A stretch of DNA of 39,921 bases from a virus, in the IMG/VR virus record IMGVR_UViG_3300017714_000037, positions 1 to 39,921 of that record. The stretch is one strand, 5' to 3'. Shown here piece after piece: positions 4,123-39,770 of this stretch (position 1 is its first letter; the number at the start of each line of letters is the position of its first letter). Under the pieces are notes generated by a model that saw nothing but the letters and a program-made list of their open reading frames with translations, ran no database searches and was not told the DNA's origin. The position numbers were made by a program, and so were the translations under genes.

Positions 4123-5649
4123 TTAACTAATTGTCAACACATTTGATGAATTCCAAGGAAGATACAAAAACCTGTTTGGACCACCCTGTGAGCTGGTATT
4201 ATCACTATAATCTGTGCCTGTACCATCACCCATATCAACTAATGCTTGTGAATTATCTGTTAAAAACTTCTTACAATCGGCTGTTGTTGCTTGTGGATTA
4301 ACTTGTAAGTATAGTGCAAGTATGCCACAAACTTGAGGACTAGCCATACTAGTACCACTTATTTTAGCACTTTTGTAGGATGAATTTCCTGGGTATGAAG
4401 TGTTTGTTGAATATCCTGTTGAATTTGTTGCGGCAGTTATGTAAGACCCAGGAGCAAAACAATCAATCCTTGGCCCTTTTTCACTTGATCCTGAAACATT
4501 TTCCCAAGACTGACCATTACTAAATGCTGATATGTTACCAACCACAATTGCATCATTGCTATGTGGACTACCTGGTCTATGATAGTAAATTGGATTTCCA
4601 GCCGATACTTGGCCAGAGCCCCATGACTGCGAACATGTATAGTAGTTGTCATAGTCTGCACCACCTGGTACATCTTGTTTGTGATAATAGTTGCCCGCGG
4701 CCTTAACATATATAACACCGGCATCTGTTAGATCTTCACAAGCGGCATCGATTGCTGTTACTCCATACATATTATGAGTACTAACTTTGTTTCCATAATC
4801 TACATCTAATGAAGTTCCTTGATCAACCCCTCTATAGTTTACTTCAGTTACTGTGCCACCCTGACTGCTATAACCTGGATAGTACCATCTATATCCCCAA
4901 CTTGCATTCACAATAGTTGGTCTTTTAAAACCTGTGTTTGGATCAACAGATTTTTGTTGATGCCAAAGTCTAATTAAATCAAATTCGTCACCGTCTGCTA
5001 TACCGCCACTTGAATCAAAACGTATGCTGTGAATAGTTGCATTCTTGGCCCAACCATAAAGTTTTCCTGCCACTGTACTTGCAACGTGTGTACCATGATT
5101 ACCAACGTCCCCATAATGGTTCGAACTCATGCTACCACTTTGTCCTGTAACTGCGTACCAATCATGTTCTACAAATCTTGTGCTTCCGTTGGCATCTTCG
5201 AAATCTGGATGTCCACTCATCACACCATTATCTTGAATCACAACGTCGACACCTGTGCCATCTAAATTATAATTATAATCGCCACCTGGACTTGCTTCAA
5301 TTACTGCTTGAGTGCATCGTCTTAATGCCCAATTAATATGTGTTGAGTTAGTAGATGAACTTCTTGCAAACACACCTGTTTGTGTTGCAAATAATTCTTT
5401 TGCTTCTTCTGGAGGTAAAACGTCAATACCCATTACTCTTGAATCTGTTTTTAAACGTGTTATTTCTTCATCTGATAAAACATATTCTGTTGTTCTATTG
5501 CTTAATGGTTTTCTGTTTGATACATCAACAGTTCTATCTGGAACAATATTTGAATCAACATTTGAATCTGCTGTGGTATCACGTTCTAATTGATCCCAAA
5601 ACTCTTCGTAGTTAACACCTTTGTTTAATGTTACTAAAACCGGTTTCAT
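4123..5649 (-). CDS. Subtilisin-like serine protease (peptidase S8)
   Basis: A 508-residue subtilase. The catalytic residues are readable: Asp140 in VVIQDNGV, His185 in NHGTHVAS, oxyanion Asn320 in KAAGN, and Ser434 in SGTSMASPQ. Residues 1-78 resemble an inhibitor-I9-type prodomain, with YVLSDEEITRLKTDSRVMGID just before a linker that may be the autoprocessing site. There is no signal peptide, so it is made in the cytoplasm and probably packaged into the virion or acts during assembly. It lies between fibre and structural genes and its ATG overlaps the stop of the upstream fibre gene by one base (TAATG), which argues that it is a tail component. It could process fibres or attack host surface proteins. 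The protease assignment is firm; the target is not known. Confidence 0.92.
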   Translation of the reverse strand: MKPVLVTLNKGVNYEEFWDQLERDTTADSNVDSNIVPDRTVDVSNRKPLSNRTTEYVLSDEEITRLKTDSRVMGIDVLPPEEAKELFATQTGVFARSSSTNSTHINWALRRCTQAVIEASPGGDYNYNLDGTGVDVVIQDNGVMSGHPDFEDANGSTRFVEHDWYAVTGQSGSMSSNHYGDVGNHGTHVASTVAGKLYGWAKNATIHSIRFDSSGGIADGDEFDLIRLWHQQKSVDPNTGFKRPTIVNASWGYRWYYPGYSSQGGTVTEVNYRGVDQGTSLDVDYGNKVSTHNMYGVTAIDAACEDLTDAGVIYVKAAGNYYHKQDVPGGADYDNYYTCSQSWGSGQVSAGNPIYYHRPGSPHSNDAIVVGNISAFSNGQSWENVSGSSEKGPRIDCFAPGSYITAATNSTGYSTNTSYPGNSSYKSAKISGTSMASPQVCGILALYLQVNPQATTADCKKFLTDNSQALVDMGDGTGTDYSDNTSSQGGPNRFLYLPWNSSNVLTIS

Positions 5650-8065: not shown

Positions 8066-8073
8066 TATTTATC
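8066..8073 (-). promoter_or_regulatory. Late promoter GATAAATA
   Basis: The minus strand reads GATAAATA (plus strand TATTTATC), overlapping the stop of the giant tail gene and about 20 bp upstream of the short fibre paralogue. It matches the NATAAATA form seen elsewhere in the window and would let the fibre genes be transcribed independently of the 11.6-kb gene before them. Confidence 0.55.
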
Positions 8074-24552: not shown

Positions 24553-25113
24553 ATGAAAAAATATGATCAGTACATAGCCGCAGATAGAATAGACGCTCAT
24601 TTGCATGATAATGATATACACTATCTGACTGGAGAAATTGCTAATGAAAACGTTACTGAAACTATTAAATGGATAATGTCAGCCAATTTAAATAGAAAAC
24701 CTAAAAAAACATTAAAACTATACATTAATTCCATTGGTGGAGATCTGTATGAATCATTTGCATTAATTGATGTAATGAAAAACAGTTACCATCATATTTC
24801 AACTATTGGTATAGGTGCTGTTATGAGTGCAGGACTATTGGTATTTGCTAGTGGTAAACAGGGCGAAAGATATATTGGTAAGAACACAGGCATAATGAAT
24901 CATCAACATTCAGACGCAATGGAATCTAAGATGCATGACATGAGATCACAAATGAAAGAAAACAACAACTGCGAAATGCGTTGTTTGAACATACTGCGTG
25001 AAGCAACTGGATACAGTTTAGCAGATGTTCGTAAAAAATTAAACACACCAAGTGATCAATACTTTACAGCCAAACAGATGATTGACCATAAACTGGCCGA
25101 TCATATATTATAA
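24553..25113 (+). CDS. clpP: ClpP-type serine protease
   Basis: A 186-residue ClpP/crotonase-fold protease. The catalytic triad is visible: Ser92 in GAVMSAGLL, His117 in IMNHQHS (cellular ClpP has MIHQP), and Asp168 in NTPSDQYFTA. The strand LKLYINSIGGDLYESFALID matches the ClpP core, including the GGD turn. Length is close to cellular ClpP (about 195) without the usual N-terminal pore loop. T4-like phages normally use gp21 as prohead protease, so this is probably not that enzyme. It may act on phage or host proteins, alone or with a host Clp ATPase. It stands between the small basic protein and the accessory operon, with its own late-type promoter motif. The protease identity is firm; the biological role is open. 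Confidence 0.88.
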   Translation: MKKYDQYIAADRIDAHLHDNDIHYLTGEIANENVTETIKWIMSANLNRKPKKTLKLYINSIGGDLYESFALIDVMKNSYHHISTIGIGAVMSAGLLVFASGKQGERYIGKNTGIMNHQHSDAMESKMHDMRSQMKENNNCEMRCLNILREATGYSLADVRKKLNTPSDQYFTAKQMIDHKLADHIL

Positions 25114-25153: not shown

Positions 25154-25834
25154 ATGATTAATGTCATTACATCTGGCTGTAGTTTCACTTACAATTCTGA
25201 AATGACCTGGGTTGGCCAATTAGAAGAATTATGGAACGTGCATAATGTTGCTTCGTGTGCCTCTGGCAACGATTTAATTTCTAGATTTGCTATTAACAAA
25301 TTACAAGAACTAAAAGGACAAAATAATCTGTTAGTATGCCAATGGAGTGGAATACATAGACGTGCATTTTTGTCAGATCATAATTTTGGATTTGACAATG
25401 ATTCTGATTACTGTTTAAAAGATACAAACGGATGGTGGATAAAAAATGGTGGTAACAATGTAGACAGCAAAGTTTCAGACAATGACGCCGTTGAAAAACA
25501 TTTGTTTGAACCTTATAGAAAAATCTACAATGAACAACAAGGTTCTATCGAAAGTCTAGAACACATAGCAAGAACACAGTGGTATTGTAAATTACATAGA
25601 ATACCAATGTTAAACTTTTGGTGGAAAGATGAATTATCAAATATAGATATAGATGCTACATTGGTTGATTGGGATTTGTTTTGGTTTCATAAACAAACAG
25701 GTGGAATGGCCGAATGGTGTATAGATGAAATGTGGGATCCGGGATTTGCTGACGGCAATCACCCTACAAAAGAACATCACGATAAATTTGCAACAGATGT
25801 TATTATACCTAGGATCGAAAAATTAATACAATGA
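25154..25834 (+). CDS. SGNH hydrolase-like protein, copy 1
   Basis: A 226-residue SGNH/GDSL-like protein. The N-terminal nucleophile motif is ITSGCSFT (Ser at about residue 10), followed by a block-II-like ASGND, a block-III-like QWSGIHRR, and a C-terminal GNHPT whose His, with Asp three residues before (DGNH), matches the family DxxH. SGNH enzymes usually cleave or transfer acyl groups on glycans or lipids. The protein also has a WYCK..WWKDEL segment and a WFHKQTGGMAEW segment shared with two other genes here (28090 and 28866). It is the first gene of the operon, its stop overlaps the next ATG (ATGA), and it starts right behind a sigma-70-type promoter. Substrate unknown; surface glycan deacylation is a reasonable guess. 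Confidence 0.72.
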   Translation: MINVITSGCSFTYNSEMTWVGQLEELWNVHNVASCASGNDLISRFAINKLQELKGQNNLLVCQWSGIHRRAFLSDHNFGFDNDSDYCLKDTNGWWIKNGGNNVDSKVSDNDAVEKHLFEPYRKIYNEQQGSIESLEHIARTQWYCKLHRIPMLNFWWKDELSNIDIDATLVDWDLFWFHKQTGGMAEWCIDEMWDPGFADGNHPTKEHHDKFATDVIIPRIEKLIQ

Positions 25835-26973
25835 CTCCATTAATAATTAAACAATATATCAAAGAAGAAACAATAAGTCAATTTGTTGACGGTGATTATT
25901 ATGAACTTGCTTTTTATGGCAGTGATATGTATGAACCATTTATTGATGCAGACTGTTGGTGGGAACCTGGTGTACTTAATAATTTAATTTACAATAATAA
26001 AAAACTTGCTATATGTTATATGCGAGAACCTGCGTTCGAACATGATATCCATGTTGAGAAACAGATACTACTAGGACACGATTTAGTAAGTAAACATAAT
26101 ATAGATCCAAAAAATATTATTTACTTTTATTCAACAGACTTAGGAAAACAAACACATAAAGTGGTTGCAGAAAAACATAATTTAGAACCTAAGCCTTTTA
26201 CTATTATAACATTTCCATATTATGAAGTTGATGCTTACAAAAAAATAATTGAGCAAAAAATATGTGATCATGTTACTCCAGCAGAAACTAAAACTAAAAA
26301 TGCTGTACGAACATTTTTATCATTAAATGGGAAACCAAATAAGTTTATGCGTTTAAAACAAGTTGCACTATACTGGCAACGTAGATTAATGAATAATGGA
26401 TTGGTTACGTTAACAAGAACAGAAGAAGACAAGCAACACTTTCCAGAACTTAAAGATTATTATCCATATGTATCAAGTATAATATCTGAAAAAGAATTTG
26501 GTAAACTTTGTAAGCACTGGCCTCATTCATTAGATGAGCATAACTTAGAACAAGGATTATATGGTAAACATTTTAGTGGATATCCATTTGATAAAAAACT
26601 ATTCCAAGATACGTATATAAGTGTTATATCAGAAACACATAGTGGTGCACATGATTGCAATCCACAATTCTTTCCAACAGAAAAAACATACAAAGCAATT
26701 ATTAATTGTCATCCTTTTATAATGTTGTCAACACAGCATTACTTGAAAGAATTACAAGCACAAGGATACAAAACATTTGCACCATATGTAGATGAATCGT
26801 ATGACCTAGAGCCAGAAGCATACAAAAGAATGAACTTGGCAATTGACCAAATAGAAAAACTTTCTAAAGAAGGTGTACCAGTTGACATGTTACAAACTGC
26901 TGTATACAACTACGCACATCTACAAAGTCGTGTACTGACACATTTAGAGTTAGTAAAAGGATTGATGCAATGA
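25831..26973 (+). CDS. Glycosyltransferase-like protein with TEKTYKAI motif, copy 1
   Basis: A 380-residue protein of a family present four times in this window. Shared landmarks are a central FLSLNGKPNKFMRLK (about residue 160) and a C-terminal FFPTEKTYKAIINCHPF (about residue 281), followed by GYKTFAPYVDESYD. The last block resembles the nucleotide-sugar end of GT-B enzymes such as fucosyltransferases (YITEK-type motif) and exostosin-like proteins, so sugar transfer is the best guess, though the similarity is limited to motif level. It overlaps the upstream SGNH gene by ATGA and the downstream 47-aa gene the same way, so translation is coupled. No membrane segment. Likely a cytosolic transferase in a surface modification pathway. 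Confidence 0.6.
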   Translation: MTPLIIKQYIKEETISQFVDGDYYELAFYGSDMYEPFIDADCWWEPGVLNNLIYNNKKLAICYMREPAFEHDIHVEKQILLGHDLVSKHNIDPKNIIYFYSTDLGKQTHKVVAEKHNLEPKPFTIITFPYYEVDAYKKIIEQKICDHVTPAETKTKNAVRTFLSLNGKPNKFMRLKQVALYWQRRLMNNGLVTLTRTEEDKQHFPELKDYYPYVSSIISEKEFGKLCKHWPHSLDEHNLEQGLYGKHFSGYPFDKKLFQDTYISVISETHSGAHDCNPQFFPTEKTYKAIINCHPFIMLSTQHYLKELQAQGYKTFAPYVDESYDLEPEAYKRMNLAIDQIEKLSKEGVPVDMLQTAVYNYAHLQSRVLTHLELVKGLMQ

Positions 26974-27113
26974 AGACATATTACTTTTGGGTAACATTGC
27001 AAAACAAAGCACCTATGAAAGTTGCAGAAGATGGACGAACAGCCAGCGAAGCAAAACAAATAGTTGAAGCGAGATTTCCAAATGCTAAAATTATTTTTGC
27101 GGAGGGATTTTAG
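26970..27113 (+). CDS. Small conserved protein, 47 aa
   Basis: A 47-residue frame, MKTYYFWVTLQNKAPMKVAE then DGRTASEAKQIVEARFPNAK. It starts in the ATGA overlap with the stop of the preceding gene and ends directly before the ATG of the next gene (TAGATG), so it is tightly embedded in the operon and very probably translated. The pattern of a strand, a charged turn with ADG/EDG, a helix with EAKQIVEARFP and a final strand looks like a small alpha/beta fold that recurs in short phage proteins. Function unknown. It contains no cysteine, so it is not an obvious substrate for the radical SAM enzymes. Confidence 0.7.
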   Translation: MKTYYFWVTLQNKAPMKVAEDGRTASEAKQIVEARFPNAKIIFAEGF

Positions 27114-28121
27114 ATGACAATGTTATACAACAGTTATCCTTATTGGAGATACACACCAAGTAAAAACGGAGAACGTGAAGGGTTGTTTGTAGGAGATCCT
27201 TTGCCATTAATGATTACTCACGGTCCTCAATATCATACTTGCAAAGAAAATAACAAGCCATGTGCATTTGTTATTGAAGAACTTACTGAGTCAGACTTAC
27301 CCGGACCTTCGCTAGAAGATGACTTACCTGTTTTTGAAATGCTACACAAACGTTTACAAGATAATAACATAGATCAAAATGACGTACACATCATTATGCC
27401 GAGCATAAATTTTAATGAACAATATGATAGATGGTGTAAAGATAGCAATCAAAAATATATTATAAAAAATAGATACACATATCCTTTTTATTTTTTAACA
27501 GTACAACGCAGATATGATTATGTACAAGAATTTAATTATAAACGTAATAAACATTTAATGAGTTTGAATGGTGCTGTAAAACCTATGCGTATAAAGTTTG
27601 TAAACTTTTGTAAAGAAAACAGACTAATGGACAACTATATTAGTTTAGTTAATGTATACAATACAACTAACGAGCAAGTTGAATCTGTAAAATTAGATAT
27701 CGAGGCAAACGACTTAACTAAAGATGATAAAATAGTTCCGATAAAATTAATGGCTGACAGTTGGTTAAATGTTATAAACGAAACACACGAAGATGATACT
27801 ATATTTTTTACAGAAAAAAGTTGGAAGCCTATTTTAAACTTACAATTGTTTTTATACTATGGCACAGGTAATCCACAAGCATATTACAAACAATTACAGT
27901 CATACGGATTTAAATTGTACGATGAAATTATTGATTATAATAATAACACCAAAGACGAAATACTAAAATTTTGCAACACACCATTAGAGCAGATTGCTGT
28001 TGATATAGAAAAAGTTAAAGACAAAATGCTTTACAATCAACAGTTAGCACTTGACACTGATTGGCAAACCAAGTATCATAAGGTTATATATGAACAGATA
28101 TCTAATAACATCGGGATGTAG
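27114..28121 (+). CDS. Glycosyltransferase-like protein with TEKSWKPI motif, copy 2
   Basis: A 335-residue member of the same family as the gene at 25831. It has LMSLNGAVKPMRIKF near residue 147 and FFTEKSWKPILNLQLF near residue 231, followed by SYGFKLYDEIIDYN. Compared with copy 1 the DESYD ending is replaced by EIIDYNN. It begins one base after the 47-aa gene ends, with GGAGGG about 10 bases upstream as ribosome-binding site, and its last 32 bp overlap the next SGNH gene in another frame. Best guess is a GT-B-like sugar transferase; the residues that would bind the nucleotide sugar cannot be assigned with certainty. Confidence 0.58.
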   Translation: MTMLYNSYPYWRYTPSKNGEREGLFVGDPLPLMITHGPQYHTCKENNKPCAFVIEELTESDLPGPSLEDDLPVFEMLHKRLQDNNIDQNDVHIIMPSINFNEQYDRWCKDSNQKYIIKNRYTYPFYFLTVQRRYDYVQEFNYKRNKHLMSLNGAVKPMRIKFVNFCKENRLMDNYISLVNVYNTTNEQVESVKLDIEANDLTKDDKIVPIKLMADSWLNVINETHEDDTIFFTEKSWKPILNLQLFLYYGTGNPQAYYKQLQSYGFKLYDEIIDYNNNTKDEILKFCNTPLEQIAVDIEKVKDKMLYNQQLALDTDWQTKYHKVIYEQISNNIGM

Positions 28122-28869
28122 TTTTACAGCTCATGCTGTTGAACCAAACATTGCTTGGCCAAATCATATTAAAGATTGGCAAGTAATTAACTGTGCAGAA
28201 ATGGCCAGTGGTAATGGTTTGATTAGCAGAAACTTAATTGCTACTGTTCCTCATTATGTTGACAATAATCCAACTGTAGCAGTGATGTGGTCAAACCCAA
28301 ATCGCTTTGAATTGTTTTACAATCAACAATCAAACAACTATGATAGAATTTACAAAGACATGAAAGGTAATGGTGGATTCCAAAATCAACCATACACAGG
28401 TAAATGGCAAACGCACGAAACTTCTAACTGGGTAAAAAGTGGAGGAGGATTTGGTCATTGGGAGTTTGACAGCAAAGAATTAAATCAAGATATGAAGTTA
28501 TACATCACTAACTTTCACAACGAAGAATTACAATTTATACAAACACTAGAACATATATTAAAAATACAATGGTATTGCAAAGCACATAATTTAAAATTAA
28601 TCAATATGTGTTGGCAAGATATATTTACTGGACAAAATAATCCAGACGGAAATAATTCAAACAAACACGGTGACTTAATTGTTAACAGTTTTGAAAATGC
28701 TGTACACTTATGGGAACAGGTCGATTGGTCAACTTGGTGGTTCCACAACAACTACGGTGGTCTAAAAGAATGGTGTACAGATAATGGTTATGAACAATTT
28801 CCTGGAAGTCATCCTACAACAGAAGCACAAAAACATTTTGCAGAATCAGTAGTAAAGGAATTGCTATGA
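28090..28869 (+). CDS. SGNH hydrolase-like protein, copy 2
   Basis: A 259-residue protein (MNRYLITSGCSFTAHA), from an ATG at 28090 preceded by AAGG eight bases before. An in-frame ATG at 28051 would add 13 unrelated residues and overlap the previous gene further, so I prefer 28090. It shares GCSFT, NGLISRN, NPNRFE, a WYCKAHNLKLINMCW segment, a WWFHNNYGGLKEWC segment and a final SHPTTEA with copies 1 and 3. The DxxH aspartate is not conserved (PGSH), so if catalytic it would rely on a Ser-His dyad, or it may be a binding protein. Its stop overlaps the next ATG by ATGA. Confidence 0.68.
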   Translation: MNRYLITSGCSFTAHAVEPNIAWPNHIKDWQVINCAEMASGNGLISRNLIATVPHYVDNNPTVAVMWSNPNRFELFYNQQSNNYDRIYKDMKGNGGFQNQPYTGKWQTHETSNWVKSGGGFGHWEFDSKELNQDMKLYITNFHNEELQFIQTLEHILKIQWYCKAHNLKLINMCWQDIFTGQNNPDGNNSNKHGDLIVNSFENAVHLWEQVDWSTWWFHNNYGGLKEWCTDNGYEQFPGSHPTTEAQKHFAESVVKELL

Positions 28870-29630
28870 AAATATTAACTACAGGATGTTCATTTACTCA
28901 TGCACCAGATAGTTGGGCAAACTATTTAGAAAAAGATTACGACTTAATTAATGTCGCACAAGGCGGAGCAGGAAACGAAATGAATATTAGAAATGCAATG
29001 ATAGAACTTTACAAAAACAGTTACACTCATTGCATTGTACAAATATCTGGTATTAACAGATTTGAATTAGTAATAGACGAACACATAGATAGTCAAAATG
29101 TTTTCTTGGTTCCAAACGAACAATATACTTGGATAAAAAGTACAGGTGATCAAGAGTGGTGGCATTCTTGGGCTAAAGAAAATATAACAGAAGAACAAAC
29201 AAAGTTAGTGACTAATGCATTAAATAACTATATGAAGCATTGCTATTCAGAGCATCATCAAATTTTAAAAACATTAATGTCGATAGTTCACTGCCAAACG
29301 TTATGTAAACAAAAACAAATTAAACAATTATATTTTTGTTGGAAGAAAGAATTATGGCAATATGTTGATGTAATTAAAAAATCAAAAGAACTTACTGCTT
29401 GGTGGAATCAAATTGATTGGACATTATTTTGGTTTCACGGACCATACGAAGGTTTAAGTGAATGGGGTATTGCTAACGAATTCGCAGGCAATCTTTTGGA
29501 AGACGTAACTAATAAACCTCCCAAAGGATGGTTGATGATTGATAATAGAAAAACTATGATTGGTCATCCGTCAACAGAATGTCATAAAGCATTCGCAGAA
29601 AAAATTATAAGACCATGGATACAAAAATGA
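28866..29630 (+). CDS. SGNH hydrolase-like protein, copy 3
   Basis: A 254-residue paralogue of copies 1 and 2: MKILTTGCSFTHAPDSW, NVAQGGAGNEMNIR, QISGINRFE (a GxN as in SGNH block III), CQTLCKQKQIKQLYFCWKKEL, WFHGPYEGLSEWG, and a C-terminal IGHPSTECH. Here too the acidic residue of DxxH is missing (MIGH). The tandem position of copies 2 and 3, joined by an ATGA overlap, argues for duplication in place followed by divergence. Its 3' end overlaps the next gene. The family is seen in the sequence; the enzymatic activity and substrate are inferred. Confidence 0.68.
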   Translation: MKILTTGCSFTHAPDSWANYLEKDYDLINVAQGGAGNEMNIRNAMIELYKNSYTHCIVQISGINRFELVIDEHIDSQNVFLVPNEQYTWIKSTGDQEWWHSWAKENITEEQTKLVTNALNNYMKHCYSEHHQILKTLMSIVHCQTLCKQKQIKQLYFCWKKELWQYVDVIKKSKELTAWWNQIDWTLFWFHGPYEGLSEWGIANEFAGNLLEDVTNKPPKGWLMIDNRKTMIGHPSTECHKAFAEKIIRPWIQK

Positions 29631-30955
29631 TTAATTTATTATATCAAACTTGGATTAACCACGTACCTATTTCAAACAGTGTACCACCACATAAAAGAAA
29701 AATGAGTGGCGACGGATACGGTAATGTTAAGTGCAATTATTTAGAAAAAATGTTAGAAGTAGTTGGAATCGAATGGAAGTCGTTGACTGTTGAAAATTTA
29801 GATCCGAACGAAATTACGTATTATCATATACAACCAGAATGGATAGACTTGGCTTTCTTTTATGAAAATGTCTTCCATCACATCGATGATGATGTATTAA
29901 ACTTACTACGTGATCCGAACAACAAAGTAAGATTACTAATTTGGTTCCCATCTGAAGGCTTCCATTTATCAATGCCAAGATTTTTGGATGACATAACTTG
30001 GAGTATTAATGATAAAGGTATACCTTTTGAAAAAGTTAGAATGGTATATGGTGATCTTAAAATTGAAAAAAATTACGAAAGATATATGTTTGAAAAAAGA
30101 TTAAGTGATGATCAAAAAATTACTATGTATCCGTTTAATGTTTTTGAAACAAATTATAGACACGAGTGTGATGTAAGATACTTTATGAGTCATAAACGTA
30201 AAGGTGTTGAAGCTGAAAAAGAATTAATTGATCCTAAAGAGCTTGATCGTAATCATATACGTTCACATAAGTTTTTATGTAAAAATGCAAATCCAAGAGA
30301 ACACAGAATTTATATCATGAGTGAACTATATCGACAAGGATATCAAGATCAAATGATTCATAGTTTTTTAAATAGATACTTTACTCCAGACAGCATTGGC
30401 AATTTAAAAAGTTATGTTCCTGAATCAAAACATCATTATTTAGAAACTATTGACGAATATAGCAAGACTTGGCTTAAAGAAAAAACTCCTATAATACTTG
30501 ATCATAATTCTGATACTATAGGAGAAGACATGAATCAACGTATACTAGTTAAAGAACATTTTACAGAAACTTATTTTAGTTTAGTAACTGAAACTGTATT
30601 TGAATCAAACCCTGCTTCGCCATTATTTGTTACTGAAAAAACTTACATGCCTTTTGTAAATTATCATCCATTTATTATAACCAGTGGTCCGGGGTGTTTA
30701 ACATATCTACAAGAGCAAGGTTATCAAACATTTCCTGAACTGTTTGATGAATCCTACGACGGAGTAACTGATCGATCTAAAAGATTGAGTATGATTATGT
30801 CTCAAGTTGAAAAATGGTGTGACAAAGATATAAAAGAATTACACAAAGCATATTGGAGTGTGTGGGATAAATTAGAACACAACCACAATCATTTTTTTGC
30901 AAAGAGACATCTATCAACGTGGATGGATTTGTTGAAAAAACTGAATGATAAGTAG
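29627..30955 (+). CDS. Glycosyltransferase-like protein with TEKTYMPF motif, copy 3
   Basis: A 442-residue member of the FxTEK family, the longest in the set. It has SHKFLCKNANPREHRIYIM near residue 214 (the LNGxxKPHR position) and FVTEKTYMPFVNYHPF near residue 333, followed by GYQTFPELFDESYDGV, very like copy 1. The start chosen gives an ATGA overlap with the preceding stop, as at three other junctions in this operon, and has GGA seven bases upstream. An in-frame ATG at 29615 would add four residues. The N-terminal half has no motif I recognise. Probably a cytosolic sugar transferase; what it modifies is not known. Confidence 0.58.
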   Translation: MINLLYQTWINHVPISNSVPPHKRKMSGDGYGNVKCNYLEKMLEVVGIEWKSLTVENLDPNEITYYHIQPEWIDLAFFYENVFHHIDDDVLNLLRDPNNKVRLLIWFPSEGFHLSMPRFLDDITWSINDKGIPFEKVRMVYGDLKIEKNYERYMFEKRLSDDQKITMYPFNVFETNYRHECDVRYFMSHKRKGVEAEKELIDPKELDRNHIRSHKFLCKNANPREHRIYIMSELYRQGYQDQMIHSFLNRYFTPDSIGNLKSYVPESKHHYLETIDEYSKTWLKEKTPIILDHNSDTIGEDMNQRILVKEHFTETYFSLVTETVFESNPASPLFVTEKTYMPFVNYHPFIITSGPGCLTYLQEQGYQTFPELFDESYDGVTDRSKRLSMIMSQVEKWCDKDIKELHKAYWSVWDKLEHNHNHFFAKRHLSTWMDLLKKLNDK

Positions 30956-30962
30956 TATTATA

Positions 30963-31583
30963 ATGATTAATAACATTCAACCAGAAGTAACTAGAGTTCA
31001 AGGTAAGATGCTTATTTCAATGCCACATCTTGCTGATCCTAGATTTTATCATAGTACATTAGCAATGTATAAGCATGACGACGAGGGAGCGGGTGGTATT
31101 ATTTTCAATAAGCCGGCAAAGACTTTATTAATGAATGACTTATATAGCGATATGGGTATTGCTCTTTTACCGGATATGGGAGAACAACCTGTTTATTACG
31201 GTGGTCCAGTAAACACACATCAAGTATTTGTTTTACATAGTAAAGATTATACTGATAGAGATACTGTTCCTGTAACTTCCGATCTTTTTTTAACTACTAA
31301 TAAACACATCCTTACTGCTATTGCAAATAAAGTTGGTCCTAGTACATATAAAATTTGTTTAGGTTGTGCTGTTTGGGGACCTAAACAACTTGAAAGCGAA
31401 CTATCAGGTGCATGGCAACACAATGATTTAAGTAGTTGGTTATACGGTAATATAAATGCTAGTGATGTGTTTACATCAAACAATATGTGGCCGGTATCAG
31501 TTGAGCGATATAGCAAGGGAATTGCTAACAATATTTTAGATTTTATGGAAAAGAAACATGCCCCAACAGATAGAACACAATAA
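30963..31583 (+). CDS. yqgE: YqgE/AlgH family protein (UPF0301, DUF179)
   Basis: A 206-residue protein that matches the YqgE/AlgH family along its length: GKMLISMPHLADPRFYHSTL, GAGGIIFNKPAKTL, PVYYGGPVNTHQVFVLH, FLTTNKHILTAI, and CLGCAVWGPKQLESELSGAW. Each corresponds to a conserved block in bacterial YqgE (LIAMP, GIIVNKP, GGPV, GYASWxxGQLExEL). The molecular function of YqgE is not settled; AlgH has been linked to alginate regulation in Pseudomonas. I chose the ATG at 30963, which gives a usual N-terminus; an ATG at 30945 would add six residues. It lies between two FxTEK genes, a curious place for a housekeeping family, and implies recruitment from a host. Confidence 0.85.
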   Translation: MINNIQPEVTRVQGKMLISMPHLADPRFYHSTLAMYKHDDEGAGGIIFNKPAKTLLMNDLYSDMGIALLPDMGEQPVYYGGPVNTHQVFVLHSKDYTDRDTVPVTSDLFLTTNKHILTAIANKVGPSTYKICLGCAVWGPKQLESELSGAWQHNDLSSWLYGNINASDVFTSNNMWPVSVERYSKGIANNILDFMEKKHAPTDRTQ

Positions 31584-32586
31584 CAACACATATCTATTTT
31601 ATGATTTTGACTGCGGTAGAGATCGCGGCATGGCAGACTTACGAAATACTATGCCAGAACATCTTAAGAAAAAACAAAAACCATATATTGTGATATCAAA
31701 TGCATTCGAAGGCGAGATACATTTTAAACAACCTGATACATTTTTAGAACAGTTACACACTCTCCTTAAAGAGTATCCTAGTGATAAAGTTGTATTAGTA
31801 ATGTGTGATGCCAATTTAGATGCAAACTATAAACGTTGGTGTAAAAATTATAAAGAGAAAATAGTGATAGGTCATAGAATATATTTTCCATATACATTAT
31901 TACAACGAACAATTAATCATTTTAATAGTATCACAAACAAGAAAAAACATTTAGCAAACAAATACAAGCATTATATTTGTATGAATGGTGCGGCAAAGCC
32001 ACATAGATTTAGAATGGTTGAAAAGTTATTTTCAAATGGTTGGAATGAGCAAGGACACATAACATATCTAAATAGGTATGGTGCAAACACAAAACACATG
32101 GCTAACGAAAACTTCCAAGGACAGGAATTACTATTAGACTTTAATGCTAAAACAATCGACGAGCAAAGTAATCAAGAAATACTACCAGTACAATATAAAC
32201 AAGCAGTATTTGATATTGTCAACGAAAGCATTGTAAGTGATACTAGTGTGTTCATAACTGAAAAGATATGGAAGCCTATATTACATAAAACTCCGTTTGT
32301 TGTTTTGGGATCAAAAGGAACTTGCAAACACTTAGAAAAGTTTTTTGGTTTAAAAATGTTTCCTAGTATGATTAACTATAGTTTTGATTATGTTGATTAT
32401 CCTCAACGTTTTAATAGATTGGTTAACGATAATTTAAGACGTATAATGGATACTCCATTGGATGATATTAATGCATGGTTGAATAATGCAAAGACACAAA
32501 GTATTTTGTCACACAACCAAACTAAATTAATTAATACAAAAATACCAAGTCTAGTAGATCATATAGATGAAAGCATACATGGATAA
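31558..32586 (+). CDS. Glycosyltransferase-like protein with TEKIWKPI motif, copy 4
   Basis: A 342-residue member of the FxTEK family with the clearest motifs: HYICMNGAAKPHRFRMVEKL near residue 139 and FITEKIWKPILHKTPFVVLG near residue 231, followed by FFGLKMFPSMINYSFD. The FITEKIW..I..TPFVVLG block is the most similar to the fucosyltransferase-type C-terminal motif. The first 26 bp overlap the end of the YqgE gene in another frame, and GGAAAAGAA precedes the ATG. Its last codons overlap the start of the first radical SAM gene by 8 bp. Role as for the other copies. Confidence 0.62.
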   Translation: MPQQIEHNNNTYLFYDFDCGRDRGMADLRNTMPEHLKKKQKPYIVISNAFEGEIHFKQPDTFLEQLHTLLKEYPSDKVVLVMCDANLDANYKRWCKNYKEKIVIGHRIYFPYTLLQRTINHFNSITNKKKHLANKYKHYICMNGAAKPHRFRMVEKLFSNGWNEQGHITYLNRYGANTKHMANENFQGQELLLDFNAKTIDEQSNQEILPVQYKQAVFDIVNESIVSDTSVFITEKIWKPILHKTPFVVLGSKGTCKHLEKFFGLKMFPSMINYSFDYVDYPQRFNRLVNDNLRRIMDTPLDDINAWLNNAKTQSILSHNQTKLINTKIPSLVDHIDESIHG

Positions 32587-33808
32587 AGATTACGCATTAA
32601 AGAAATCAAAACGTTTTTGTATGTTGCCTTGGACACACTTGCACTCATGGCCAGATGGTAGAGTGTTGCCTTGTTGTATGGCACCAATGGATGAAATACT
32701 TGGTAACTTAAAAGATCAATCGTTTGAAGAAATATGGAATTCAGAAAAACTTAAAAAGATGCGTGTGGCTATGATTAATGACAAGCCAACCAAAGAATGT
32801 ACTCGTTGTTACTCCATGGAGAACAGTGGATTGAATACAACAAGGACTTGGGCCAACGAAGCATTTGAAAATCATTTTGATAAGATAGGAACTACAAAAG
32901 AAGATGGCACAGTTGAAAAAATTAACTTGCCTTATATTGATTTTAGATTTTCAAACTTATGTAACTTTAAATGTAGAACATGTGGTCCTGATTTATCATC
33001 AAGTTGGTATGATGACAATGTAAAATTATACGGTCCGTTGGATCAACCAAAAGTTATACGACCATACAAAGACGAAGAAACATTTTGGAAAAAAGTCGAA
33101 CCATACATGGACGGCTTAGAAGAAATATACTTTGCAGGTGGCGAACCACTTATCATGGAAGAACATTATAGAATTCTTAAAAAACTTGATGAACGTAAAA
33201 TGTATCATGTAAGATTAAAATACAACACAAACTTTTCACAAATGACATTTAAAAAATTAGACGTCATGGAAATATGGAATCGTTTTGAATCTGTGAAAAT
33301 AGGTGCTTCATTAGATGGTATGGGTAAGCGTGGAGAATATTTACGTAAAGGTCAGTCTTGGGAACAGGTTGAAGAAAATAGAAAACGTATGTTTGATATT
33401 TGTCCTGATGTGTATATATTTTTAGCAACATGTTTAAATGTATATAATAGTTTTCACGTGCCTGACTTCCATCATGAATGGATACAAAAGGGTTGGATCG
33501 ATGCAGTTGGTGGTAGTTTAATCAATCCGTTGTTTGTTCCAGAAGAACTTTCTATACAAGTGCTACCGTTGGAAATTAAAAAACGTTTAGAAGAAAGATA
33601 TCGTAAAGAACAAGAATGGTTTGATACTTACACAAACAATAAAGAAAAACGTTACGACAAACTAATTCATTTTATGTATGAAAAAGATCATTCACATCTA
33701 TTACCAAAGTTTTGGGAAAGAACTGATATGGTTGATAAATTACGTAAAGAAGATTTTATTTCATTGTTTCCAGAACTTGCTGACCTAAGAACTCTTGCAC
33801 AAGTCTAG
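32579..33808 (+). CDS. Radical SAM protein with N-terminal SPASM/twitch-like domain, copy 1
   Basis: A 409-residue radical SAM protein. The cluster motif CxxxCxxC is at Cys128, Cys132 and Cys135 (LCNFKCRTC), and the AGGEP at 186-190 is the SAM-binding GGEP. Ahead of the core lies a Cys-rich segment: FCMLPWTHLH with Cys14, PCCM with Cys32-33, a GNL..EIWNS..L..MR region, and CTRC with Cys74 and Cys77. This resembles a SPASM/twitch domain that binds an auxiliary Fe-S cluster, but placed N-terminally rather than C-terminally. I chose the ATG at 32579 (an ATG at 32567 adds four residues). It follows FxTEK copy 4 and its 3' end overlaps a convergent SGNH gene by 53 bp. Reaction unknown. Confidence 0.85.
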   Translation: MDKDYALKKSKRFCMLPWTHLHSWPDGRVLPCCMAPMDEILGNLKDQSFEEIWNSEKLKKMRVAMINDKPTKECTRCYSMENSGLNTTRTWANEAFENHFDKIGTTKEDGTVEKINLPYIDFRFSNLCNFKCRTCGPDLSSSWYDDNVKLYGPLDQPKVIRPYKDEETFWKKVEPYMDGLEEIYFAGGEPLIMEEHYRILKKLDERKMYHVRLKYNTNFSQMTFKKLDVMEIWNRFESVKIGASLDGMGKRGEYLRKGQSWEQVEENRKRMFDICPDVYIFLATCLNVYNSFHVPDFHHEWIQKGWIDAVGGSLINPLFVPEELSIQVLPLEIKKRLEERYRKEQEWFDTYTNNKEKRYDKLIHFMYEKDHSHLLPKFWERTDMVDKLRKEDFISLFPELADLRTLAQV

Positions 33809-34577
33809 TGTTACCTTGCTTACCAAAGTGATATCCGTTATCAATTTGTAAACTTTTAAAAGTCGCATCATCAAATAAATTTTCAACTGATGGAAACTGC
33901 CTAGTAGGAAATAGTTTTGTTTTCAATTGTGGTTTATAATTTAGCCAATAAAAAGGAATAACTTTTTTACCAAGTGATTCTAAATAATTAATTAACGAAT
34001 ATGTTTGCTGATAATAAAAATATGTTTGATGATATGAGTCTTTTGATTGTTCGTACCAAGTTGCTAGATAACTTTTAAAAGCATCAAATGTTAACGGTGG
34101 TACGACTTTATTATTAATTCTACTTTTCCATAAATGTTCTACAAACCATGCCCATGTTTTTATATCTCCATGTTCACTTGCACCAGAACCTAGTCCAGGA
34201 CTTAAATGCACAAACGACATGTTATTATCCCAAATTTTATGATAATCATTTCCATATTGATCTATACCAAAATTCATTTGTTTTTCTTTTTCATCAATAG
34301 GATCTAAAACTAATATAGTTCTGTCGTGTGTTGTAATTTGTATCACAAAAATATCTGGATCATAATTTTTTAAAAGATAATCAGCAACAAAATGATAATA
34401 CTCTATACCTGCTCCTGCTCTACCGGCATTATACATAGTATTCTGATTTCCACTATTAGTAAGCCATTGATTTAAAATATAAGGATATGTATCTTTGTGT
34501 TCAAGAGGTTCACTATTTTTTTGTACACCTTCTGTCCAAGAACACCCTAGGCATGCAATCTTAGTTTTACTTTGCAT
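33756..34577 (-). CDS. SGNH hydrolase-like protein, copy 4 (minus strand)
   Basis: A 273-residue SGNH-like protein more distant from copies 1-3. It has ACLGCSWTEG near residue 10, NAGRAGAGIEYYH as the block II glycine region, VIQITTHDR, and a C-terminal DNGYHFGKQGN containing the probable catalytic His. It lacks the WFH..EW insert of copies 1-3. It is encoded on the minus strand behind the SufE-like gene, whose 3' end overlaps its ATG by 11 bp, so the two form a small convergent operon. Its last 53 bp overlap the end of radical SAM copy 1 in antisense. Ribosome-binding sequence is supplied from inside the SufE gene. Confidence 0.68.
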   Translation of the reverse strand: MQSKTKIACLGCSWTEGVQKNSEPLEHKDTYPYILNQWLTNSGNQNTMYNAGRAGAGIEYYHFVADYLLKNYDPDIFVIQITTHDRTILVLDPIDEKEKQMNFGIDQYGNDYHKIWDNNMSFVHLSPGLGSGASEHGDIKTWAWFVEHLWKSRINNKVVPPLTFDAFKSYLATWYEQSKDSYHQTYFYYQQTYSLINYLESLGKKVIPFYWLNYKPQLKTKLFPTRQFPSVENLFDDATFKSLQIDNGYHFGKQGNTRLVQEFLGQQVLETMK

Positions 34578-34968
34578 ATTCTTTTACTTTACCAAACATG
34601 TTATAAGCACCATTACGTCTGTTAGGAGATAATATTGATGTTAATTGTAATCCTTCAATTATACTATCTACATTTGTATTTTGTATTTCTTCTTTAGTTG
34701 CATTACTAAAGATATCGGCAACTAGTGATGCTACTCCTTTGGTAATATGTGCATCTGAATCTGCCATAAATGTTAATACATTGTTATCATATTTTGGAAC
34801 TAACCATACTTGACTCATACACCCTGGCACCTTAAAAGTTTCAATCCTAAACTCTGTCGGCATGGTTGCTCGTGATCCTAAGTCAATTAGATACTGATAC
34901 TTGTCCATATTTTCAGTAAGCAGTTCCAATTCTTCTTTATAAAAATTATATTTTTCTTGTATAGACAT
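34567..34968 (-). CDS. sufE: SufE-like sulfur-acceptor protein
   Basis: A 133-residue protein matching SufE along its length. It has YQYLIDLGS, then VPGCMSQVWLVP with Cys50 at the position of the persulfide-carrying Cys51 of E. coli SufE, FMADSDAHITKGVASLV, and LSPNRRNGAYNMF, all typical blocks. SufE accepts sulfur from the cysteine desulfurase SufS and passes it to the SufBCD scaffold for Fe-S assembly. No SufS or SufBCD gene is present, so it must work with the host enzymes. The start has AAGGA five bases upstream. It is divergent from radical SAM copy 2 with only 17 bp between start codons, which suggests that it supports Fe-S loading of those enzymes. That link is inference. Confidence 0.9.
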   Translation of the reverse strand: MSIQEKYNFYKEELELLTENMDKYQYLIDLGSRATMPTEFRIETFKVPGCMSQVWLVPKYDNNVLTFMADSDAHITKGVASLVADIFSNATKEEIQNTNVDSIIEGLQLTSILSPNRRNGAYNMFGKVKEYAK

Positions 34969-34985
34969 TATATCCTTTTTGTGCT

Positions 34986-36185
34986 ATGTTAAATACAACT
35001 ATGCAAACTCCAAAATCATTCTGTATATTACCATGGATCTCACTAGAGTCCACTGCGGCCGGATGGATTAAACCTTGCTGTATGTATAATAATAACATGA
35101 CTGATGGAAACAAGCAACCATTTAATTTAAATGAAAACGATTTAAATGAAGCATGGGACAGTGATTATTATAGAAATCTAAGACAAGATTTCTTAGATGG
35201 TAAAATGCCTAGCGGGTGTGGTAAGTGTTGGTCAGAAGAAGCAAGTGGTAAAACTTCAAAACGTATTAGAGACAATGCTAGGTTTAAACATCATATTACA
35301 AAAGAAACATTGGAAAATCCAAAAATAAAATATTTAGATTTAAAACTAGGAAACATCTGTAATTTAAAATGTCGTATATGTGGAACGCATTCAAGCTCAA
35401 AATGGATTGCAGAACAAAAGCATTATGATAAACAAGATAATATAAATGACGATCACGTGAGACACAGTTGGCCTGAAACTAATAAACAGTTTTGGGAACA
35501 ACTCGAAACTATGTTGCCTACATTAGAATACATCGACTTTACAGGTGGTGAACCATTTATGATCAAAGAACAATTTGAGTTGTTAAAGTTTTGTGTTGAA
35601 AAAGGTTATTCGAAAAACATAGGAATACACTATAACACTAACGGAACACAATTACCAAATGAAGCACTTGAATCTATATGGCCACACTTTAAATCAGTTG
35701 ATGTACAATTTTCAATTGACGGCATCGGTGAACAATTTGAATATCAAAGACATCCTGCTAAATGGAATCGTGCTGTAGAAATAATACAAGCATTTAAAGA
35801 TAAACAAAGTAAAAAATTTACTGTCGGCATCTGCCATACTATTAATATTTTTAATGTGTATTATATTCCAGAGTTTCTAGAATGGGCAAATGATTTTGGT
35901 ATAAGTGTTTACTTAAACAACTTACATTATCCTATGCACTATAATATTAAATGTTTACCTAACAATGCAAAAAAAGAAATCATTAAAAAATTAGAAAACC
36001 ACAGCAATCCAAATGTAAAAACTTTTATTGATTACATGCAACAAGATGGCGACGGGTATCATGATTGGATGAAATTTGTTAAGTGGACCATACGCAAAGA
36101 TGAATTTAGAAAAGAAAAGTTTGGTAGTATATTTCCCGAACTTGCTGAAGTAACTGAATACAATCATTATATCAAAAATCCATAA
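34986..36185 (+). CDS. Radical SAM protein with N-terminal SPASM/twitch-like domain, copy 2
   Basis: A 399-residue paralogue of the gene at 32579. Core motif Cys125, Cys129, Cys132 (ICNLKCRIC) and TGGEP at 186-190. The N-terminal cluster segment is FCILPWISLE with Cys13, PCCM with Cys31-32, and CGKC with Cys78 and Cys81. A possible alternative start is Met6 at 35001; neither has a clear ribosome-binding site. It is divergent from the SufE-like gene and is followed after 6 bp by copy 3. The C-terminal end (FGSIFPELAEV) matches that of copy 1 (ISLFPELADL), so all parts of the fold are shared. Substrate unknown. Confidence 0.84.
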   Translation: MLNTTMQTPKSFCILPWISLESTAAGWIKPCCMYNNNMTDGNKQPFNLNENDLNEAWDSDYYRNLRQDFLDGKMPSGCGKCWSEEASGKTSKRIRDNARFKHHITKETLENPKIKYLDLKLGNICNLKCRICGTHSSSKWIAEQKHYDKQDNINDDHVRHSWPETNKQFWEQLETMLPTLEYIDFTGGEPFMIKEQFELLKFCVEKGYSKNIGIHYNTNGTQLPNEALESIWPHFKSVDVQFSIDGIGEQFEYQRHPAKWNRAVEIIQAFKDKQSKKFTVGICHTINIFNVYYIPEFLEWANDFGISVYLNNLHYPMHYNIKCLPNNAKKEIIKKLENHSNPNVKTFIDYMQQDGDGYHDWMKFVKWTIRKDEFRKEKFGSIFPELAEVTEYNHYIKNP

Positions 36186-36191
36186 ATAGTT

Positions 36192-37490
36192 ATGATGGAT
36201 AACATAAGTAAAACATTCTGTACTGCACCGTGGGTTCATGCCTATGCTAACAAAATCAAAGGCAAAAGAAAACTATGCTGTAATTCAGTTTATCAAAATG
36301 ATGCTGATAACAGTGCAGTTCCGAAATTAGAACAGTGGTGGAATGATGACTATATGAAAAGCGTTCGCAAAAGAATGCTTAATGGTGAAGCATTACCAGA
36401 ATGTAAAATATGCGATCCTAATGATAAAAAATCAATCACTGCTGGTTCATACAAAGATATGTGGAATGAATCTTACAAAGATTATATTAGAACAATATTA
36501 GAAAATACTACACCAGATGGAGAAACATCTTTATCTCCTACATCTTTCCATTACGAATTATCAAACTTATGTAACTTTGCTTGTCGTATGTGTAGTGTAG
36601 AGTGGGCAAGTAAAATCGAGGCAGAAGCGAAGAAACATGAAAACTATCCGTTAAAAGGTTATGAAAGAAGATACTTAGAAGTAGATCATCAGAGCATGAC
36701 CAAACCATGGCAAAAGAAATTAGAAGATGAGCTGTGGAAAAGCGTAAAGGATAAAACGTTAACAAATATTTACTTCGCCGGCGGAGAACCTTTGATGTGG
36801 GATATACACTGGAAAGTATTAACACACTTGGTAGAGTCCGGACATAGCAAAAACGTTTGGCTTAGATATAATACTAATTTAAGCAGAATGCACTACAAAG
36901 ATTATGATTTAGTAGAACTGTTAAAACAGTTTAAAAGAGTAGACATTGGTTGTAGCATCGATGGTGGAGGTCCTGTTGGAGAATATGTACGCACTGGTTT
37001 AGTATGGAATCAATGGAAAGAAAACTTTAAAAAATTATATCAACTACGACTGTACGATAAATCAAGATTTCAAATACATTTAGAAACAACAATAACAACA
37101 CCGGGCTTGTTTGGAGGAATGCCAGAGCTAATTAATTTTGCAATTGAGCAAGATGCTAGAATAAGAATACACAGAGCAGGTCCCCACGAACCCGACAACT
37201 TGATATGTCCTTCTGCTGTTCCAAGATCAGTAATGAACAAGTGCATAGATGATATTATATTAAATGTTAAACAAAAAGATATTCGTGATAGTGAGTATGC
37301 TGTTAGTCAGTTGTTGAGAATTAAAGATAAACCTGTGTATGAAGAAGATTTTAAAAACTATCATGCTGATTTACGTAAAGGAAAAGAAAAAGTAGAGTTT
37401 ATCGAAAATATACGCAAAGGATTAACACTGAAACAAATAATAGAACAAAGTGGTAACCAAGAAGCACTCAACTGGTACATAAATATATAA
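36192..37490 (+). CDS. Radical SAM protein with N-terminal SPASM/twitch-like domain, copy 3
   Basis: A 432-residue radical SAM protein, the most diverged of the three. Core motif Cys127, Cys131, Cys134 (LCNFACRMC), AGGEP at 196-200, and a further CSIDGGGPVGEYVR matching the GASLDGMG of copy 1. The N-terminal cluster segment is FCTAPWVHAY with Cys10, LCCN with Cys29-30, and CKIC with Cys71 and Cys74. The C-terminal half differs from the others, with a Lys-rich tail. Two adjacent ATGs (36192 and 36195) could be used. It begins 6 bp after copy 2, so it is co-transcribed. It may share a pathway with copies 1 and 2 on different substrates. Confidence 0.84.
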   Translation: MMDNISKTFCTAPWVHAYANKIKGKRKLCCNSVYQNDADNSAVPKLEQWWNDDYMKSVRKRMLNGEALPECKICDPNDKKSITAGSYKDMWNESYKDYIRTILENTTPDGETSLSPTSFHYELSNLCNFACRMCSVEWASKIEAEAKKHENYPLKGYERRYLEVDHQSMTKPWQKKLEDELWKSVKDKTLTNIYFAGGEPLMWDIHWKVLTHLVESGHSKNVWLRYNTNLSRMHYKDYDLVELLKQFKRVDIGCSIDGGGPVGEYVRTGLVWNQWKENFKKLYQLRLYDKSRFQIHLETTITTPGLFGGMPELINFAIEQDARIRIHRAGPHEPDNLICPSAVPRSVMNKCIDDIILNVKQKDIRDSEYAVSQLLRIKDKPVYEEDFKNYHADLRKGKEKVEFIENIRKGLTLKQIIEQSGNQEALNWYINI

Positions 37491-38820: not shown

Positions 38821-38838
38821 ATTAGTACTTATCAGAGG
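38815..38838. repeat. Duplicated start-region repeat, copy A
   Basis: 24 bp, TTTCATATTAGTACTTATC followed by R and GAGG, matching 39567-39590 at 23 of 24 positions. On the minus strand it covers the 5' leader and the first codons (ATGAAA) of the 36-aa gene. Confidence 0.8.
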
Positions 38839-39572
38839 ATGTCAACGACTTTAGGCAAAATATAGTTGTTAAAAACCCATTTGTTTGCTTTAGGACTCCA
38901 ATGGTCATCGTCTCTAGAGATAATTAGATCATTGTCAAAATACAATTGTCGTTGTTGTGTTGATGCGTGGCCTCGTGGTGAATGTGTTGGTTCTACTCCA
39001 TGGGCTAATAAAAGTTTACTATACGCATTTGTTAAATCATCTGTTATTGCCTCATTTGGATTTCTTAATAAGTTTAATTTTATTATGTGTTTAAAATTAT
39101 ACAGTTTATCTACATTGTCCCACCATTTCCTATTATACAAACGATATCTACTAGATACAGATGTATTCCTTAGTGTTTCTAACAATGCTTTTTGTGTAGA
39201 CTTTGGTATTCTATTGGTTTCATCTCCAAAGTACATTAATTCGTCTGAATGTATAGAATACCAATATGTGTTTCTAAGAACAAGTGTTTTATAATTACTT
39301 GATACTTCGTTTTCAAGAGTAAATAATTCACCATCAGCAATACTTGAAAGTATTCGTTGATTATATGTTTCATTAGTTAATACAACATCAACATCTTTCA
39401 TTTTTGCATCAAGCATGGCTATACGATAATGATCATACCCTCGACCGCCTAGTGAATAATTAATGAATTGGTGCTGAGGGAAGTGTTGTGATAGCAAGTA
39501 AGACCAATGATTTTTTTCTTGGCCGTCTTGACTGTATGCCGAGAAACTATCTCCAATAAATGCTATTTTCAT
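38832..39572 (-). CDS. SGNH hydrolase-like protein, copy 5
   Basis: A 246-residue SGNH/GDSL-like protein with the clearest family motifs in the window: KIAFIGDSFSAY (GDSF, nucleophile Ser near residue 9), a block-II YSLGGRGYDHYR, and a C-terminal DDDHWSPKANKW in which DDDH fits the family DxxH. I chose the ATG at 39572 because GDSF then lies at the usual distance and because the sequence around it is duplicated at the start of the next gene; an ATG at 39605 would add 11 unrelated residues. It is preceded by the A/C-rich tandem repeat array (39594-39770 on the minus strand). Likely an esterase-type enzyme acting on a host or phage glycan or lipid; not a close relative of copies 1-3. Confidence 0.75.
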   Translation of the reverse strand: MKIAFIGDSFSAYSQDGQEKNHWSYLLSQHFPQHQFINYSLGGRGYDHYRIAMLDAKMKDVDVVLTNETYNQRILSSIADGELFTLENEVSSNYKTLVLRNTYWYSIHSDELMYFGDETNRIPKSTQKALLETLRNTSVSSRYRLYNRKWWDNVDKLYNFKHIIKLNLLRNPNEAITDDLTNAYSKLLLAHGVEPTHSPRGHASTQQRQLYFDNDLIISRDDDHWSPKANKWVFNNYILPKVVDIL

Positions 39573-39590
39573 ATTAGTACTTATCGGAGG
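39567..39590. repeat. Duplicated start-region repeat, copy B
   Basis: Second copy of the 24-bp repeat found at 38815-38838, here at the start of the SGNH copy 5 gene. The shared minus-strand sequence reads CCTC-Y-GATAAGTACTAATATGAAA, with no ribosome-binding site. Confidence 0.8.
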
Positions 39591-39593
39591 GGT

Positions 39594-39770
39594 CATATAT
39601 TGCATTTTTTGTATGCGAAAATTTTTTTGCAGGGGTGTTTATATTGCATAGTTTGTATTAGCGGTTTTTTGTATGTGCGGTGTTATATATTGTATTTGTG
39701 TGTATGTGGCGGTTATATTGTATAGTTTGTATGTGCGGCGGTTATATTGTATTTTACGTATTTGCGGGAC
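39594..39770. repeat. Degenerate tandem repeat array, G/T-rich on plus strand
   Basis: Five starts of TATATTGYAT-type units (39594, 39639, 39683, 39713, 39742; spacing 45, 44, 30 and 29 bp) alternate with six GTATNNGCGG-type units. The spacings suggest a base module near 15 bp. The plus strand is almost free of C, so the minus strand is A/C-rich. No convincing coding frame is seen. It lies directly upstream of SGNH copy 5 on the minus strand and could be a binding-site array, a promoter region or a replication element. Confidence 0.65.

Follow-up and report, generated by a model that had tools for sequence, protein, structure and literature searches.

Radical S-adenosylmethionine (radical SAM) genes have been described in several phage genomes. 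The host-recognition cluster of pelagimyophages combines glycosyltransferases with radical SAM cassettes (PMC7029224). The portion of a report on T4-like marine viruses considered here describes a virus with 12 radical SAM genes together with iron–sulfur (Fe–S) assembly genes, and proposes a high Fe–S demand for such viruses (PMC5332604). Aeromonas phage 332-Vera carries eight radical SAM genes among its structural genes (PMC12390700). Here, we describe a viral gene cassette in which radical SAM genes lie in a fixed order with two sets of paralogues, glycosyltransferase-like proteins with an FxTEK motif (GT1–4) and SGNH-like proteins (SGNH1–4). The window analysed is the entire IMG/VR record IMGVR_UViG_3300017714_000037, of 39,921 bases, from a large bacterial virus of the sea. 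We consider it probable, with considerable room for doubt, that the cassette belongs to a jumbo myovirus and encodes a cytosolic pathway for the assembly, acylation and radical editing of a glycan.

Gene content and conservation of the cassette

All genes listed for this region by an initial annotation are present as open reading frames (ORFs). They sum to 13 and not to the twelve that it counted: four SGNH-like proteins, four FxTEK proteins, one YqgE, three radical SAM proteins and one SufE. The plus strand carries SGNH1 (25154–25834), GT1 (25831–26973), an ORF of 47 amino acids (26970–27113), GT2 (27114–28121), SGNH2 (28051–28869), SGNH3 (28866–29630), GT3 (29615–30955), YqgE (30945–31583), GT4 (31558–32586) and rSAM1 (32567–33808). 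SGNH4 (33756–34577) and SufE (34567–34968) follow on the minus strand, and rSAM2 (34986–36185) and rSAM3 (36192–37490) again on the plus strand. Plus-strand neighbours mostly overlap by 4–71 bases or abut. For SGNH2, the likelier start is the ATG at 28090 (MNRYLITSGCSFT).

Single-protein scans for relatives of rSAM3 and YqgE returned none and one, respectively. GT3, and then profiles, were therefore used as queries. With GT3, nine further viral contigs were found (43–85% identity). The order SGNH1, GT1, GT2/SGNH2, SGNH3, GT3, GT4, rSAM1 is found in all nine, down to approximately 40% identity. SGNH4 and rSAM2 follow in eight of eight contigs that extend far enough; the ninth, L003, ends as fetched inside rSAM1. 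A profile of SGNH1 adds partial copies at contig ends, giving 15 contigs across two clades. The near clade comprises L002/L005, L003 and L004, the far clade L006–L011, with approximately 40% identity between them. The families thus occur together in related viruses; the scattered distribution that the initial annotation had named as a refutation is not seen.

The near clade additionally carries a ClpP-like serine protease (24553–25113, plus strand; PF00574, E=6.8e-28; PHROG head maturation protease), which is the first gene of its plus-strand run, and YqgE, as well as SufE where the contig reaches. YqgE and SufE are absent from the far-clade cassette. In the far clade, the order of GT2 and SGNH2 is mostly swapped and an additional GT1-like gene stands ahead of SGNH3. 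The rSAM2–SGNH4 pair is inverted in L009 and L010.

GT1–4 and SGNH1–3 each form a clade comprising both viral lineages (group support 0.998 for GT1 and 1.0 for GT2). The SGNH4 clade (support 0.98) also comprises both lineages but includes one outside sequence. Each paralogue group spans both lineages, and therefore the paralogues diverged before the two viral clades split. Each has kept its own place in the cassette. This deep orthology of every paralogue lends support to a multi-step pathway, which had been proposed from the gene order and the number of paralogues. The ratio of nonsynonymous to synonymous substitution rates (dN/dS) is 0.05–0.56 for every gene compared with L005 and L004; dS is often close to saturation or past it. 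All of the compared genes are thus under purifying selection. The shared order in nine further contigs, together with dN/dS values in this range, takes the arrangement beyond chance.

The 47-residue ORF is open as annotated, but the nearest relative has no such ORF between GT1 and GT2, and rSAM3 is absent after rSAM2 in L002 and L004. Because both are missing at the corresponding places in the nearest relatives, they are accessory genes and recent, unshared additions. Other variation surrounds the same genes. L002 has three tandem SGNH4-like genes, and in L019 ClpP is separated from SGNH1 by two radical SAM genes. The ClpP protein is 100% identical in amino acid sequence to that of L002, compared with approximately 82% for the neighbouring cassette genes, which points to recent exchange. 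The block as a whole is a mosaic around a conserved center.

FxTEK proteins: fold and donor site

GT4 is the only FxTEK protein that was modelled; GT1 belongs to the same profile family. The AlphaFold2 (AF2) model, built from a 55-sequence alignment, has a mean predicted local distance difference test (pLDDT) score of 93.1 and a predicted template modelling (pTM) score of 0.89. It consists of two Rossmann-like domains and a C-terminal donor site, the GT-B fold. The best Foldseek matches in the Protein Data Bank (PDB) are WaaG and mango fucosyltransferase 13, with fucosyltransferase 2nzx and the glycosyltransferase of phage HY126 ranking closely behind. By VIA-align, the model matches many GT-B enzymes at Z 10–11, all tied, including the T4 DNA α- and β-glucosyltransferases at Z 10.9 and 10.3. 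In a viral structure library, most of the best matches are proteins of uncultured phages that lack characterisation; a 788-residue protein among the matches is named UDP-glucose/GDP-mannose dehydrogenase.

Residues E223, E235 and K236 are invariant in the family. GT1–4 have no Pfam match, the GT10 family (PF00852) included. A profile comparison with GT10 (hhalign) aligned 52 columns at a probability of 30%, with the TEK motif in register; the donor-site motif is thus weakly in register with the GT10 pattern YEN...YITEK. The sole PDB match to the family profile, at E=4.8, is an unrelated dehydrogenase and was discarded. The FxTEK proteins are therefore predicted, at the level of the fold, to be GT-B glycosyltransferase-like, and GT1–4 would be expected to transfer sugars from nucleotide-sugar donors.

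SGNH-like proteins and the SGNH3 slot

The AF2 model of SGNH1 has a pLDDT of 92.4. Its best PDB match is TesA of E. coli (Z 14.7, 161 residues, 3.3 Å). The block I serine (Ser10) and the block V histidine (His203) are each invariant in 54 of 54 sequences, and Gly8 is likewise among the invariant residues. We predict that these proteins adopt the SGNH fold and act as esterases or acyltransferases. The folds of both families are of a glycan type: GT-B, with matches to fucosyltransferases, WaaG and the T4 DNA glucosyltransferases, and TesA-type SGNH. The unrelated folds that the initial annotation had named as a refutation were thus not found. Its count of four SGNH-like proteins, of which SGNH4 is divergent, stands within the cassette; a fifth, weak candidate lies outside at 38832–39605 on the minus strand (Lipase_GDSL, E=0.013, below the cut-off).

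SGNH3 differs from its neighbours in its pattern of identity. The allele in the window is 64% identical to that of far-clade L010 and 31% identical to those of the near relatives L002 and L003. The other glycosyltransferase and SGNH genes of L010 are approximately 31–44% identical to those of the window, and the genes flanking SGNH3 in L002 and L003, SGNH2 and GT3, are 81–95% identical. SGNH3, and not its neighbours, is thus a slot for allele exchange between the two viral clades.

At one bacterial locus (L083), a relative of the SGNH proteins adjoins a gene that looks carbamoyltransferase-like by eye, as is also the case in a radical SAM cluster (L050) of the 328-kb relative described below.

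Radical SAM, SufE and YqgE genes

All three radical SAM proteins exceed, over their whole length, the curated cut-off (170 bits) of NF033640, the NCBIfam family of radical SAM proteins with an N-terminal twitch domain (rSAM1, 414.7; rSAM2, 388.4; rSAM3, 298.1 bits). The N-terminal cluster domain, described as unusual in the initial annotation, is present, and it defines this already named family. Pfam detects the radical SAM and N-terminal SPASM domains; the N-terminal domain of rSAM3 is detected by NF033640 only. A CxxxCxxC motif is present in each protein. Each also has a set of N-terminal auxiliary-cluster cysteines (C18, C36, C37, C78 and C81 in rSAM1), which is preserved in its orthologues. 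rSAM1 is the slowest-changing gene of the cassette apart from ClpP, with 92–95% identity within the clade and 57–63% to the far clade. rSAM2 has orthologues in eight of the nine contigs, and rSAM3 occupies its place in this virus only.

The 328-kb relative (L004) has 21 matches to NF033640 and a 242-kb relative (L006) has 22, in several clusters, some of the matches being weak or partial. One cluster of the 328-kb relative, away from the cassette, also contains a carbamoyltransferase, a UDP-sugar dehydrogenase, a weak QueC match and an FAD/NAD reductase. SufE of the window is identified by PF02657 (E=2.6e-34) and has the conserved Cys50. Matches to SufE or to A-type Fe–S carriers were found in the large relatives that are rich in radical SAM genes, and in the 242-kb record SufE lies outside the cassette. 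The presence of SufE and A-type carriers fits a high Fe–S demand in these viruses, in line with the proposal for other marine T4-like viruses (PMC5332604). YqgE/AlgH (DUF179; PF02622, E=1.6e-30) was detected in only two of nine records (G000 and G001). Four YqgE matches among annotated phage records look like misfiled bacterial sequence and were set aside.

Bacterial relatives

A scan of bacterial genomes with the GT1 profile returned one locus. It lies in a Bdellovibrionia genome, where two FxTEK proteins encoded in tandem have as neighbours a GT9 heptosyltransferase, a GT2 glycosyltransferase and a UDP-sugar dehydrogenase. At E 1e-10, the family is present in four of 192 Bdellovibrionota genomes. 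Three of these four carriers have an FxTEK copy among radical SAM genes, several of them of the twitch type, and in one instance next to a nucleotide-sugar dehydrogenase. FxTEK genes thus lie beside twitch radical SAM and sugar-nucleotide genes in bacteria, and therefore a link between the three exists outside viruses. The same three carriers have 13–19 NF033640 matches each, compared with 0–10 in five other genomes; this comparison is small and unmatched, and the five include the fourth carrier, with three matches.

Three Bdellovibrionota loci (L079, L080 and L081) are islands of varied radical SAM genes with an FxTEK glycosyltransferase. L080 also contains a nucleotide-sugar dehydrogenase and a GT2 gene.

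Genomic context

The window is a fragment of a myovirus, because gp25 and a gp6-like baseplate wedge protein (Pfam and PHROG matches) adjoin the cassette. The best matches of the wedge protein in named phages are jumbo myoviruses (37–43% identity), among them Salicola phage SCTP-2, Atu_ph07, PA5oct, CBB and GAP32. In the near clade, the cassette comes after the baseplate genes, beside gp25 and the gp6-like wedge.

Further genes of the window lie on the minus strand. A protein of 3859 residues (8072–19651) adjoining the baseplate genes contains CBM_5_12 carbohydrate-binding modules in two stretches (E=5.6e-9). The tail and baseplate module includes a Subtilase-family serine protease (4123–5649; PF00082, E=7.3e-31), and both L008 and L011 have relatives of this protease upstream of their cassettes. 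The protein at the left end (3–707) has by eye the look of a GT-A/GT8-type glycosyltransferase with a DVD motif and no Pfam match. A promoter scan gave matches no more numerous than in shuffled sequence.

Proposed pathway and alternatives

The analysis establishes which genes are present, their order and conservation, the two folds, the active-site residues and the bacterial association with radical SAM and nucleotide-sugar genes. From these data we infer enzymatic activities, an order of steps, substrates and a target. The proposal also draws on the viral structural match named UDP-glucose/GDP-mannose dehydrogenase, on the sugar-related genes in the radical SAM cluster of the 328-kb relative and on SufE or A-type carriers in the large relatives. 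The four GT-B enzymes would act in a fixed order, each adding one sugar, to give a short glycan. SGNH enzymes would add or remove acyl groups at defined positions, and the step carried out by SGNH3 would be exchangeable between lineages. rSAM1 and rSAM2 may edit the sugar ring or the glycan by radical chemistry, through epimerisation, dehydration or oxidation, reactions that are known for some other radical SAM enzymes. SufE, with host SufS, would help to satisfy the need of so many viral radical SAM enzymes for Fe–S clusters. The finished glycan would most likely decorate tail or capsid proteins of the virion, and less likely the host surface. The cassette enzymes have no obvious membrane segments by a simple hydropathy window, and no export or polymerisation protein is present among the annotated cassette proteins. 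We favor a virion acceptor because of these features and because the cassette follows the baseplate genes in the near clade. A more specific version, in which GT-B enzymes and matched SGNH partners build and acylate a radical-SAM-edited virion glycan and the exchangeable acyl step acts as a serotype switch, is put forward tentatively.

Several observations weigh against the pathway. The block III asparagine of SGNH enzymes is replaced, with serine or glycine at the likely block III position, and the residue three before the histidine is aspartate (DxxH) in only 24 of 54 sequences. Because of these two departures, SGNH-like fold is the safer name for the family. The profile of the FxTEK family found no solved glycosyltransferase by sequence in a search of the PDB. 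Outside the cassette, the linkage between FxTEK and radical SAM genes is modest, with four of 17 within 150 bases where 1.3 are expected (P 0.03, from three viral records). For the far-clade cassette, the flanks that were fetched contain no match to gp25 or gp6.

The same enzymes might instead remodel a host surface glycan (lipopolysaccharide O-chain or capsule) during infection, excluding competing phages or protecting progeny. Such a role was proposed for the glycosyltransferases of pelagimyophage host-recognition clusters (PMC7029224), the bacterial FxTEK relatives lie in glycan loci, and the exchange of SGNH3 alleles resembles serotype-like variation. However, all of the enzymes look cytosolic, and none of the cassette genes could be recognised as coding for a flippase, polymerase, ligase or membrane protein. 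We regard this explanation as possible but doubtful.

Two other products are less likely. GT-B and radical SAM enzymes could hypermodify phage DNA, with SGNH proteins acylating or deacylating base-linked sugars, as the structural matches to the T4 DNA glucosyltransferases and the weak QueC match in the radical SAM cluster of the 328-kb relative might suggest. Many GT-B enzymes whose substrates are sugars and proteins match at least as well as the T4 enzymes, with ties within 1 Z; Pfam scans of the window found no base-modifying gene, and the loci of the bacterial relatives are of the glycan or radical SAM kind. DNA modification is thus very unlikely. Peptides are frequent substrates of SPASM/twitch radical SAM enzymes, weaker NCBIfam matches of the rSAM proteins include peptide maturases, and the 47-residue ORF lies within the gene run. 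A peptide or protein modified in the manner of ribosomally synthesised and post-translationally modified peptides, then tailored by glycosyltransferase and SGNH enzymes, could be envisaged on this basis. This ORF is not conserved, and the core showed no further small ORF that is, so that a peptide product seems highly improbable. We therefore retain the assembly and editing of a virion glycan as the preferred reading.

Comparison with known systems

GT3, SGNH1 and a divergent glycosyltransferase have no matches among 50,697 annotated phage records. Radical SAM relatives in these records are nearly all in Vibrio phages, and a profile search of the radical SAM clusters of Vibrio phage K566 found no SGNH or FxTEK gene. 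The initial annotation knew of no described phage system with this combination. This holds for the exact combination as far as the searched libraries go, whereas precedents exist for the general idea (PMC7029224, PMC5332604, PMC12390700). Moraphages (PMC12619734) have four core glycosyltransferases, but the word “radical” does not occur in the text, and we do not equate them with this virus.

At the level of single families, the FxTEK proteins share with GT10 fucosyltransferases the GT-B fold and, in register, the C-terminal E...(F/Y)xTEK donor-site arrangement. They differ in having no Pfam GT10 match, and the aligned part covers 52 columns only. The SGNH proteins share the fold and the invariant nucleophile serine and histidine with TesA/TAP SGNH hydrolases, but are longer, with the block III asparagine replaced and the aspartate variable.

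Members of the GT-B family, which has no sequence match in Pfam, NCBIfam or the PDB, turn up repeatedly among the uncharacterised proteins of uncultured phages and of bacteria. The proposed pathway would assign a concrete biochemical function to the many radical SAM genes whose multiplication in large marine phages has been puzzling, and the cassette is a compact gene set for direct testing of phage glycan synthesis. As far as our searches show, what is new is the cassette with its fixed order, the two protein families (GT-B and SGNH), the orthology of their members and the connection to bacteria.

Among whole systems, 332-Vera is similar in having its eight radical SAM genes among structural genes, and is set apart by its published description, which mentions no glycosyltransferase or hydrolase (PMC12390700). 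The Fe–S-rich T4-like marine genomes also have many radical SAM genes and Fe–S assembly genes, and ClpP is noted there; in the portion of that report considered here, the authors link them to Fe–S metabolism and describe no glycosyltransferase/SGNH cassette (PMC5332604). The pelagimyophage cluster is likewise a hypervariable region: it includes the tail fibre module and several glycosyltransferases, and its radical SAM cassettes are gained or lost between relatives (PMC7029224). GT8 is the commonest glycosyltransferase there, and the text names no hydrolase and no SufE, whereas the cassette described here contains four GT-B paralogues with SGNH partners in a fixed order.

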